DNA of 30,690 nucleotides from a virus, in IMG/VR virus record IMGVR_UViG_3300046744_000287, positions 1-30,690 of that record; one strand, 5' to 3'. Position numbers and translations under genes: made by a program. The notes under the pieces are model-generated. The model saw nothing but the letters and a program-made list of their open reading frames with translations. It made no database searches and was not told where the DNA came from. Positions 6,385-13,990 of this stretch are shown here, one piece after another; positions within the stretch are counted from its first letter, which is position 1, and the number at the start of each line of letters is the position of its first letter.

Positions 6385-7314
6385 ATGGAAGACGAAGAAA
6401 TCATTGACCCAAGGCAACAGGCCATAAATGCAAAAAAAGAAAAACTCAAGGCTCTTTTACAAAAAAGAAAAAAGGCTACTGCAAATAGAGAAACTGCTTT
6501 ATCAGAAAGAGAAAAGGTTGCTCTAGAAAGAAAGGAACTTTTAAAAAAGAAAAGGGCTGAAAGAGAGCAAGAAATAGCAAACTTCAAGGCTAAAAGAAAT
6601 GCTGAAATTCAAGCAAAAAAAGACGAAAGACTTGCTGAAATTCAAAAAAAGAAAGATTTTGATGCAGAAGGTAAACAACTTGCTTCTGATTTTGATAAAG
6701 AAGAAGCGATTAGAAGAGCGGCAGCGATTCAGAAAAAAGCCGAAGATGATAATTATGACTGGAATTATATAGGTGGTGATGAAAATACCGCTAACAAAAG
6801 ACAGAGAACCGAAATTATTGAAGGTGAAAAAGAAGTAGAAAGAATAATTAAGGGGACTAAAGAAATCAATACATTTAAACCAACTGGTAATACAGATGAA
6901 GATGTATATAACGCAGACCCTAGTTTAAAAAAGAAGTACCCAACCTTAGAAAAGTTTAGGATTGCTGCACAAAAATATCGTGATGATCAAGTTAAAACTG
7001 TAGAGACAGAGCAAAAAGTCATTGAAAAAGTTCCTACTAGAGAAGAAAAGGTTATTACTCAAACTAGAGAGGATTGGATTAAGAAACAACATTGGGCTGA
7101 AGGGTTACCTAAAGGTTTAGTTTCTTCACTAGCACTTAGTATGAGAAAAAGAGGTAATGACATGACTCCTAAAGAATTATATGACATATTCAAATCACAA
7201 ACATCTGAAAAAGAATCTGCTGCATGGGCTAGAAAAAATGGATTTGGTTATCTATTAGGTGGTAGAGGTGGTAGAGGATCATCTACAACAAGTGGTAAAA
7301 CAAACTTTAATTAA
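6385..7314 (+). CDS. Highly charged coiled-coil protein
   Basis: This 309-residue protein is the largest of the operon. Residues 1-120 are a nearly continuous Glu/Lys/Arg helix (for example REQEIANFKAKRNAEIQAKK), which predicts a long coiled coil. A middle part, residues 125-225, contains NYDWNYIGGDENTANKRQRT and a DPSLKKKYPTLEKFRIAAQ segment. The C-terminus is Gly-rich (GGRGGRGSSTTSG). I recognise no enzyme motif. A virion or internal head protein is plausible from the neighbours. It shares one base with the next gene (TAATG). Confidence 0.8.
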   Translation: MEDEEIIDPRQQAINAKKEKLKALLQKRKKATANRETALSEREKVALERKELLKKKRAEREQEIANFKAKRNAEIQAKKDERLAEIQKKKDFDAEGKQLASDFDKEEAIRRAAAIQKKAEDDNYDWNYIGGDENTANKRQRTEIIEGEKEVERIIKGTKEINTFKPTGNTDEDVYNADPSLKKKYPTLEKFRIAAQKYRDDQVKTVETEQKVIEKVPTREEKVITQTREDWIKKQHWAEGLPKGLVSSLALSMRKRGNDMTPKELYDIFKSQTSEKESAAWARKNGFGYLLGGRGGRGSSTTSGKTNFN

Positions 7315-10614: not shown

Positions 10615-10691
10615 TGCCTGGTAGTTCAATTGGATAGAACAACAGACTTCTAATCTGTCGGTTGAGGGTTCGAATCCCTCCCAGGTAACCA
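10615..10691 (+). tRNA. tRNA-Arg (anticodon TCT)
   Basis: A full cloverleaf can be drawn. The acceptor TGCCTGG pairs with CCAGGTA (one G-U). The D arm is GTTC/GAAC. The anticodon stem ACAGA/TCTGT has loop CTTCTAA, so the anticodon is TCT, reading AGA. The T arm is GAGGG-TTCGAAT-CCCTC. The discriminator is A at 10688, and CCA at 10689-10691 is encoded in the DNA. AGA is the common Arg codon in this AT-rich phage, so the tRNA would support its own translation. Confidence 0.96.
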
Positions 10692-10805: not shown

Positions 10806-10838
10806 TTTGGATGTTAACAAAATAATTCTATATATTTG
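10806..10838 (+). promoter_or_regulatory. Rightward early-type promoter, Bacteroidota consensus
   Basis: TTTG (10806-10809), 21 bases and then TATATTTG (10831-10838) matches the Bacteroidota boxes TTTG and TAnnTTTG without a mismatch. Transcription should start near 10845 and give a leader of about 30 bases before the ATG at 10877. It would drive the operon that contains the four hammerhead ribozymes. Confidence 0.75.
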
Positions 10839-11237: not shown

Positions 11238-11516
11238 ATGACAAATTCAAACTATTTCACAGCCTTCAACAGATTCGATAGACAAACAACATTTAACCCA
11301 ATGATGATGTCTTTCATCCAAACTACGATCAACAAAATAAGTAACGGAGGCTTCAGAGCAAGTGACCTGGTAAATTCTCTTTACGGTATCTATGACGGTT
11401 ACTACTACACAAATTTAAGATCAGAGGCCAATCGTCTATACTCACACGATATTATGATCCTTCGAGATCTACATGCAATTGCAGACACCTTGGACTCGAT
11501 AATTGCGAGAGCATAA
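11238..11516 (+). CDS. Unknown small protein before hammerhead 1
   Basis: This 92-residue protein begins MTNSNYFTAFNRFDRQTTFN and is mostly helical with no known motif. The start follows AATTAATTTAAACTAAAATAAAA, the shared leader type. Its TAA stop (11514-11516) is directly adjacent to the first base of hammerhead ribozyme 1, so the ribozyme forms the 3' end of this message after cleavage. Confidence 0.75.
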   Translation: MTNSNYFTAFNRFDRQTTFNPMMMSFIQTTINKISNGGFRASDLVNSLYGIYDGYYYTNLRSEANRLYSHDIMILRDLHAIADTLDSIIARA

Positions 11517-11570
11517 GATTACTGATGAGCCTGTGAGATCCAGGCGAAACATCCTTCGGGATGTCTAATC
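11517..11570 (+). ncRNA. Type I hammerhead ribozyme 1
   Basis: All core parts are present. CTGATGA is at 11522-11528. Stem II is GCCTG/CAGGC (11529-11533 with 11541-11545), then GAAA (11546-11549). Stem III is CATCC-TTCG-GGATG (11550-11563) with a UUCG loop. The cleavage triplet GTC ends at 11565. Stem I GATTA (11517-11521) pairs perfectly with TAATC (11566-11570) and is the open stem, which makes it type I. Cleavage after 11565 would leave a 29-base leader before the ATG at 11595. Confidence 0.95.
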
Positions 11571-11594: not shown

Positions 11595-11849
11595 ATGTTA
11601 ACATTAAGAAAATTCTACCAGGAAAATTACCCAACAGATGATATGGGATCTAAAATCAACTTAACAACTTTTGTATGCTTAATGGATTGCTTACATAGAG
11701 GAGGTAACGTGTACATCATCATTGGTGTAGAAGACAGTCTAATTAGAGAGAGATTATTTCAACACCTTGCCGACATGTTAGGCACCAACTACAACTATGT
11801 TTACAATTTATGGATGCAGGTAGATAAAGAATTATACCAGGCAATCTGA
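11595..11849 (+). CDS. Unknown small protein overlapping hammerhead 2
   Basis: This 84-residue protein starts MLTLRKFYQENYPTDDMGSK. It contains no recognised motif; the middle, GGNVYIIIGVEDSLIRERLF, looks like an alpha/beta segment. Its last codons Gln-Ala-Ile and stop lie inside hammerhead 2: stem I supplies the final codons and the TGA stop at 11847-11849 is part of the CTGATGA core. The leader is the AATTTAAACTAAAA type, left as a 29-base 5' end by cleavage of hammerhead 1. Confidence 0.75.
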   Translation: MLTLRKFYQENYPTDDMGSKINLTTFVCLMDCLHRGGNVYIIIGVEDSLIRERLFQHLADMLGTNYNYVYNLWMQVDKELYQAI

Positions 11850-11889
11850 TGAGATCTTTATGATCGAAACGCTGCGAAGCGTCATTGTC
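11840..11889 (+). ncRNA. Type I hammerhead ribozyme 2, stop codon in the core
   Basis: The core CTGATGA is at 11846-11852. Stem II is GATC/GATC (11853-11856 with 11862-11865), then GAAA (11866-11869). Stem III is CGCT-GCGA-AGCG (11870-11881) with a GNRA loop. GTC ends at 11883. Stem I GGCAAT (11840-11845) pairs with ATTGTC (11884-11889), six pairs with one G-U. Its stem II differs from the other three copies. Cleavage would leave 27 bases before the ATG at 11911. Confidence 0.94.
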
Positions 11890-11910
11890 AAATAATTTAA
11901 AATAAATAAA

Positions 11911-12077: not shown

Positions 12078-12221
12078 ATGTTAAACAAAATTCAATCAAT
12101 CGTAATCAATAGCCTTTTAGGATCTTTATTCACACTATGGGCACTAACATTTACAATGCTAGTCTTTCACCTGGTAACAGAAGGTGTAGATCCTAACGCA
12201 AGTTTTGGATACCTGGGATAA
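12078..12221 (+). CDS. 47-residue membrane protein before hammerhead 3
   Basis: The frame begins MLNKIQSIVINSLLGSLFTL and has a hydrophobic helix through WALTFTMLVFHLV. The tail is TEGVDPNASFGYLG. The TAA stop (12219-12221) touches the first base of hammerhead 3, as in the gene before hammerhead 1. The leader AATCTAAACTGAAAATC is of the common type. Confidence 0.65.
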   Translation: MLNKIQSIVINSLLGSLFTLWALTFTMLVFHLVTEGVDPNASFGYLG

Positions 12222-12275
12222 ACAAACTGATGAGCCTGTGAGATCCAGGCGAAACGCTCTGCGGAGCGTCTTTGT
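12222..12275 (+). ncRNA. Type I hammerhead ribozyme 3
   Basis: CTGATGA is at 12227-12233. Stem II GCCTG/CAGGC and its 7-base loop TGAGATC are identical to hammerhead 1, then GAAA (12251-12254). Stem III is CGCTC-TGCG-GAGCG (12255-12268) with a UNCG loop. GTC ends at 12270. Stem I ACAAA (12222-12226) pairs with TTTGT (12271-12275). Cleavage would leave 26 bases before the ATG at 12297. Confidence 0.95.
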
Positions 12276-13176: not shown

Positions 13177-13320
13177 ATGGCTATAACTAATGAAATATTC
13201 GAACACTACAGATCTCAACAGAGAAAGGTAGCAAAAGCAAAAGATCTTTTAAAAGATGAAGGGTATATAGTTTACCTGAAACCTACAAAAAAGAAAAAGC
13301 AAACTGATGAGCCTGTGTAA
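13177..13320 (+). CDS. 47-residue protein whose 3' end lies in hammerhead 4
   Basis: The frame MAITNEIFEHYRSQQRKVAK is followed by a basic region KPTKKKKQ and ends TDEPV. The final seven codons are read from stem I, the CTGATGA core and stem II of hammerhead 4; the TAA stop (13318-13320) sits in its loop II. The start is 10 bases after the preceding stop in AATTTAAACT context. Basic, helical, unknown. Confidence 0.65.
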   Translation: MAITNEIFEHYRSQQRKVAKAKDLLKDEGYIVYLKPTKKKKQTDEPV

Positions 13321-13384
13321 CTCAGGCGAAACGAGGGAGAAATGTTTTGAACGACTCCATGATTTTTGGCTCCCTCGTCTTTGT
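13299..13384 (+). ncRNA. Type I hammerhead ribozyme 4 with enlarged stem-loop III
   Basis: CTGATGA is at 13304-13310. Stem II is GCCTG/CAGGC (13311-13315 with 13323-13327) with loop TGTAACT, then GAAA (13328-13331). Stem III is eight perfect pairs, CGAGGGAG (13332-13339) with CTCCCTCG (13370-13377), and has a 30-base loop in place of a tetraloop. GTC ends at 13379. Stem I GCAAA (13299-13303) pairs with TTTGT (13380-13384), one G-U. Cleavage would leave 26 bases before the ATG at 13406. Confidence 0.93.
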
Positions 13385-13405
13385 ATAATAATAAAAACTG
13401 AAACA

Positions 13406-13990
13406 ATGAAAAAAAATTTTTGTGATTGCTGCGAGCAAGAGATAGATCAAGATCTAGATTTTTATCAATACGACCGTAACGATGAGATCCTATGTGAAGA
13501 ATGCTATTACGAGGCTTTTAATCGCTCTACTGTAATTCAGACATGGTCACCCCAAGATCAGGAGACAAAAAAATATTATTACCCGCATGAAATAGGGAAG
13601 GCATTCAATACATACTACGAAGAAATTTATTCTGATGATGATGAGGATCACCAACCTGTAAAAGATTGCAAATGGGTAAATTCAAATGCATGGAGAGGTT
13701 ATATGGACGTTGAATTCAAGGAAGGATGGAAAGATATAGAAAGCGGATGGACTACAGGATATTGGGAAGATGTTTCCTGGAAGCATAAGTTTAACGATTT
13801 AGTCCATGAAATTATAGGAGAAAACTCTGAATGCCCTGTAGCAGTATCAATCGTATCAAGTATAACAAGCAATGTATTTTCTCAGGCCACTTCTATTTTA
13901 GTAAGATCTAAAGACGAAGAAACATTTTTAGATTGGCTTGAAAACGAATATGGAATGACAAGAGAACAATTAAAAACATCACTAAAATAA
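13406..13990 (+). CDS. Zinc-ribbon acidic protein after hammerhead 4
   Basis: The product is 194 residues, starting MKKNFCDCCEQEIDQDLDF. I chose the ATG at 13406, since the longer frame from 13307 would read straight through hammerhead 4; the chosen start follows the leader AATAAAAACTGAAACA. Near the N-terminus are CDCC (residues 6-9) and CEEC (30-33), a likely zinc ribbon. The rest is acidic with a D/E run (YSDDDEDH). One GGTCACCCC motif (13545-13553) lies in the gene. Function is unknown. Confidence 0.8.
   Translation: MKKNFCDCCEQEIDQDLDFYQYDRNDEILCEECYYEAFNRSTVIQTWSPQDQETKKYYYPHEIGKAFNTYYEEIYSDDDEDHQPVKDCKWVNSNAWRGYMDVEFKEGWKDIESGWTTGYWEDVSWKHKFNDLVHEIIGENSECPVAVSIVSSITSNVFSQATSILVRSKDEETFLDWLENEYGMTREQLKTSLK

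Follow-up and report, generated by a model that had tools for sequence, protein, structure and literature searches.

Hammerhead ribozymes at the ends of phage genes, with stop codons in or beside the catalytic core

Background

Tandem hammerhead ribozymes of phages and prophages flank single genes and have been found to cut polycistronic RNAs of ~2 kb in vitro and, for one array, in E. coli (PMC3088659). Cleavage has been demonstrated for three bacterial arrays (Perreault et al. 2011, PMC3088659). As in the locus described here, several same-strand hammerheads lie around small prophage genes in those arrays, and the suggestion is that they divide long transcripts into mRNAs of gene length. Stop codons go unmentioned in that work; here, in contrast, the stop lies inside or against the ribozyme, and its preference for position and phase has been measured. 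In the haloviruses HF1 and HF2, a hammerhead-like element called HHphage is positioned 13 nt before the start codon of an early gene, and a 5' end has been mapped near its predicted cut (PMC3088659). However, HHphage has a variant core, and its relation to the preceding stop was not described.

The Theta (HDV-like) ribozymes of gut phages (PMC10879173) are also self-cleaving, sense-oriented and present in phage transcripts, but they have another fold and many are tied to tRNA 3' ends. In the Theta study, ribozymes were expected outside coding regions and intragenic matches were used to estimate false positives (PMC10879173), an assumption that hammerheads overlapping a stop codon would break. 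(Filters that discard ribozyme matches overlapping ORFs lose real ones.)

Hammerheads, their phage arrays and the processing idea are, then, already known. The term "stop codon" was not found in PMC3088659, PMC6155905, PMC7761336 or PMC10879173, and no report of a systematic stop/core overlap was found in a search of open-access papers. The strict layout described below, with a stop in the ribozyme or at its 5' edge and a predicted cut ~27 nt ahead of the following ATG, bears on the role of bacterial and phage hammerheads: it favors the making of gene-length mRNAs, and it allows a possible coupling of ribozyme folding to translation to be probed with simple reporters.

An array of four hammerheads

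The window (the whole 30.7-kb stretch of DNA analysed, from IMGVR_UViG_3300046744_000287) is a bacterial-virus genome, whose mechanically called genes include those for portal, terminase, integrase, RecE-like exonuclease and primase/helicase. Within 1.9 kb it carries four hammerheads (A-D, Table 1), which all lie on the + strand between genes of the same strand, every one fused to a gene end; the same structural scan found no hammerhead on the minus strand of the window. The four copies presumably share one transcript, and a weak hint in this direction is that a Bacteroidota-type promoter match lies ahead of the array, with no other found on the + strand of the window. A DNA similarity search against annotated phages gave no match to the hammerhead region, short hammerhead queries gave partial or weak matches only, and in four records that were inspected no CDS is annotated as ending in a hammerhead core. 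A phage-borne tRNA-Arg (TCT) is located at 10615-10691, just 5' of the ribozyme-bearing gene cluster.

Table 1. Positions in the window of the hammerheads, of the parts of hammerhead B and of neighbouring features
Feature	Position	Strand	Remark
Bacteroidota-type promoter match (TTG-N21-TANNTTTG)	10807..10838	+	ATG 10877 follows after 38 nt; weak evidence
Hammerhead A	11517..11570	+	TAA of preceding gene (11514-11516) directly before stem I; 29 nt from predicted cut to next ATG
Upstream gene, 84 codons, ends at core TGA	11595..11849	+	relatives 79-100% identical
Hammerhead B, type I, stem I open-ended	11840..11889	+	motif, covariation, sub-threshold Rfam match
Stem I 5' strand GGCAAT, doubles as last sense codons	11840..11845	+	
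Core CTGATGA (C3 U4 G5 A6 U7 G8 A9)	11846..11852	+	
Stop codon TGA, U4 G5 A6 of core	11847..11849	+	
Second in-frame TGA, U7 G8 A9	11850..11852	+	
Stem II GATC/GATC, loop TTTAT	11853..11865	+	
GAAA core strand (G12 A13 A14 A15.1)	11866..11869	+	
Stem III CGCT/AGCG	11870..11881	+	
U16.1 C17, predicted cut after 11883	11882..11883	+	consensus position; cleavage itself inferred
Stem I 3' strand and short leader of next gene	11884..11910	+	27 nt from predicted cut to ATG 11911
Hammerhead C	12222..12275	+	TAA of preceding gene (12219-12221) directly before stem I; 26 nt from predicted cut to next ATG
Hammerhead D, long stem III insert	13299..13384	+	next ATG 13406, 26 nt after predicted cut

Hammerhead B and the gene that ends in it

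From position 11838 the codons of the upstream gene read CAG GCA ATC TGA TGA, and these are followed by GATC-TTTAT-GATC, GAAA, CGCT-GCGA-AGCG, TC and ATTGTC. The 5' strand of stem I takes in the last base of CAG, the whole GCA codon and the AT of ATC (the remaining C being core C3), and its 3' strand, ATTGTC, occupies 11884-11889. The coordinates thus bear out the sequence-only reading in its claims that the TGA of this gene is bases 2-4 of CTGATGA (11847-11849 within 11846-11852) and that the last sense codons form the 5' strand of stem I (11840-11845). The CUGANGA, GAAA and UH strands of a type I core are all present, with helices II and III capped and helix I open-ended.

The minimum-free-energy fold of B is the hammerhead, with an energy that is unexceptional (z -0.8); folding was dropped as proof for that reason, and covariation was used instead. 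Stem I, which was absent from the search pattern that collected the class-B matches, is fully paired (6 of 6) in each of the 18 distinct matches, and 18 class-B matches have a stem I of at least 5 pairs, compared with 5.7 when the strands are swapped. Among 14 distinct class-B sequences, two-sided changes are seen in five of the six pairs of stem I and in one of the four of stem II (for stem III two pairs were counted, and neither varied). In the class-B alignment 99.4% of cells are paired, as opposed to 85% after shuffling and 22-37% in slid controls, and the helices are kept by compensatory changes. The structural scan gave 61 matches over 640 kb, whereas a first-order Markov control had 0.

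The window copies share the core and helix order of Rfam families RF00163 (Hammerhead_1) and RF03152 (RAGATH-1 hammerhead), which match them sub-threshold with the right borders; they differ in that all four score below the gathering cut-offs and in that stem I has only 5-6 bp and is open-ended. B itself matches RF00163 over exactly 11840-11889 at 13.6 bits, which is weak and sub-threshold relative to the gathering cut-off of 34, a detection threshold and not a biochemical defining feature. The base A is enriched just 5' (77%) and just 3' (73%) of the 6-bp stem I, which is only suggestive of a tertiary loop-loop contact joining stems I and II. Judged by its sequence, B is a complete type I hammerhead ribozyme, and its cleavage is predicted.

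The overlap would be meaningless if the frame 11595-11849 were untranslated or ended elsewhere. The protein has no Pfam match, as might be expected of such a frame. However, the frame is kept in relatives, with NG86 dN/dS values of 0.24 and 0.16 against relatives that are 81% and 79% identical, and in L073/L081/L082, a second lineage that is unrelated, conservation of the protein extends right up to the core TGA. These comparisons indicate that the gene is translated and under purifying selection, and that a spurious frame is very improbable.

Stop positions across phage hammerheads

CTGANGA always has TGA in one frame, so a reading frame that reaches the core has a chance of ~1/3 of ending there, and a single case is consequently weak evidence. 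Pattern scans of viral and genome contigs covered 4.2 Mb of loci and gave at least 490 structural matches, of which at least 342 are non-redundant by upstream sequence. This sample consists of viral and prophage contexts found by core/stem II patterns, and the statistics drawn from it ignore kinship. The stop position was taken as the last base of the stop relative to the first base of the core. Among the matches listed, the upstream stop lies within -12 to +16 of the core in 258 of 342 contexts (75%); at control positions displaced by 150-1500 nt the figure is 7.7%, with a maximum of 9.6%. The peaks in these 342 contexts are at +3 (61), -6 (49), -1 (31), -7 (26), -5 (19) and +13 (14), where +3 is the core TGA and -1 a TAA at the end of stem I. 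The sequence-only reading had missed that the overlap recurs and that no stop position is commoner than the core TGA (61 of the 342 contexts listed). The predicted cut precedes the next ATG by a median of 27 nt, with 152 of 295 of the matches listed falling within 20-29 nt. The largest array among the matches listed has nine copies; it lies on the minus strand of L246, on one 14-kb stretch, and four of its hammerheads have the stop at the core TGA.

In principle, pure packing could account for these positions: a dense genome presses the ribozyme on the gene, the core UGA ends any gene whose frame happens to be right, and translation and cleavage are unlinked. A hammerhead directly behind a gene must, after all, supply the stop for one frame in three. 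The phase of the stops was compared with a null built from each ribozyme's own sequence, which replaced a naive 1/3 binomial for +3 (p=1e-7). Among the matches listed, 141 ORFs are still open 3 nt before the core. Sixty-one of them end at +3 versus 45 expected (p=0.004), so that the excess at the core TGA itself is real but modest, as packing would allow; the shifts in stop position between orthologues (see below) also fit. What packing does not predict is that the core TGA or an earlier stop closes 98 of the 141, with ~66 expected (p=4e-8), and that only 22, about half of the 46 expected, stay open for more than 20 nt beyond the core. Frames translating through the ribozyme are depleted, and packing as the whole explanation is somewhat unlikely.

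Given the size of a ribosome's footprint, a ribosome terminating at the stop would cover part of stem I or the core in three quarters of the contexts listed. It is thus possible that cleavage is gated by translation, with a ribosome terminating on the catalytic UGA masking stem I and the core, and the level of upstream translation setting the amount of cutting. However, some stops lie at -9 to -11 or still farther upstream, and co-transcriptional cleavage may outrun the first ribosome; we consider such gating unlikely.

Use of the core ATG (CTG-ATG-A) to begin the following gene was also considered. Of the 201 frames that it opens among the matches listed, only 31 extend 60 nt beyond the predicted cut, and such a use is not general.

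Changes of the stop at orthologous sites

The sequence-only reading had further held that the stop cannot be lost without killing the ribozyme. In its favor, the TGA is nearly invariant in cores, with 372 CTGANGA hammerheads versus 1 with CCGATGA among the matches listed in 4.2 Mb of loci, and mutation of G5 or A6 lowers activity >100-fold and 10-100-fold, respectively (PMC4075628). However, C at core position 4 has been observed (PMC4075628), and this tolerated change of U4 makes the codon CGA, which is no stop. In addition, a second TGA follows the first directly and in frame, and the stops of orthologues move.

At site B, CAG-GCA-ATC-TGA is found in the window, in identical contigs (four compared over 330 nt) and in L068. 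In L069, L070 and L015, a TAG takes the place of the CAG, the gene stops nine bases upstream with a protein ending ...ELY, and the ribozyme is letter-for-letter unchanged; in these genomes the core TGA is a downstream fail-safe. Conversely, by having CAG where some orthologues have TAG, the window gene is three codons longer and has the core UGA as its stop. In L017, an unrelated upstream gene, again ending in TAG, is joined to a near-identical ribozyme (core CTGAAGA) ahead of the same downstream gene, as if the junction of gene end and ribozyme were a recombination boundary. At site D, the gene 13177-13320 crosses the core in another frame and stops at a TAA in loop II (13318-13320). The loop II stop is shared by L019 and L025, whereas the core TGA is the stop in L011, L032 and L058. 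By these comparisons, the core locks the stop only partly.

Two further observations concern these ribozymes. Hammerheads of the B type lie behind unrelated upstream genes in L017 (~4268), L052 (~4751) and L011 (~8258), all on the minus strand. The CCGATGA core (U4 to C), the only one among the matches listed, belongs to a structurally complete hammerhead at 6975 (-) of L200.

Probable role as gene-end processing cassettes

The reading we favor, and consider likely, is that these hammerheads act as self-cleavage cassettes at gene ends and divide a polycistronic transcript into mRNAs of one gene each, with the core as a built-in or fail-safe stop that excludes ribosomes from the ribozyme. An ordinary type I hammerhead would serve as the cassette, and four copies would lie between the small genes of one rightward transcript. 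Cleavage at each copy would fall after one gene and 26-29 nt before the start codon of the following one, so that the resulting mRNAs would carry one or a few genes and a short leader. Packing against the upstream gene would let the ribozyme's own letters terminate translation, through a TAA or TAG against stem I, the core UGA(UGA) or a stop in loop II. Translation that ends at or before the core would keep elongating ribosomes from unfolding stems II and III. The location of the stops would then reflect both packing and selection against ribosomes crossing the ribozyme.

The cassette reading draws on the complete consensus core and covarying stem I, on four same-strand copies with none opposite, and on the clustering of stops at the core (258 of the 342 contexts listed) relative to displaced controls. 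It also draws on the excess of ORFs that end by the core TGA with few reading past, the median spacing of 27 nt from cut to ATG, the orthologous sites at which the stop moves and the ribozyme stays intact, and the precedent of arrays that cut RNA (PMC3088659). It is weakened by the sub-gathering Rfam scores, the mechanical gene calls, the neglect of kinship and the modest size of the +3 excess.

Stem III inserts and the core of hammerhead D

Stem III of hammerhead D (13332-13377) has an insert of ~30 nt, which is also found in L011, L018, L019, L032, L041 and L058. Its letters are conserved (ATGTTTTGAACGA...CATGATTTT) while the enclosing helix changes, and it may be an aptamer or a protein site; a comparison with Rfam matched no known aptamer. 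The ATG in the core of D begins an open frame (13307-13406) that crosses the entire ribozyme and continues in phase into the gene 13406-13990. This frame is open also in L019, L025 and L032 and is closed early in L011 and L058, and is therefore probably due to chance. A second recurrent stem III insert, TTCCCC then CGA(A), is present in hammerheads of other phages (L108, L180 and L191).
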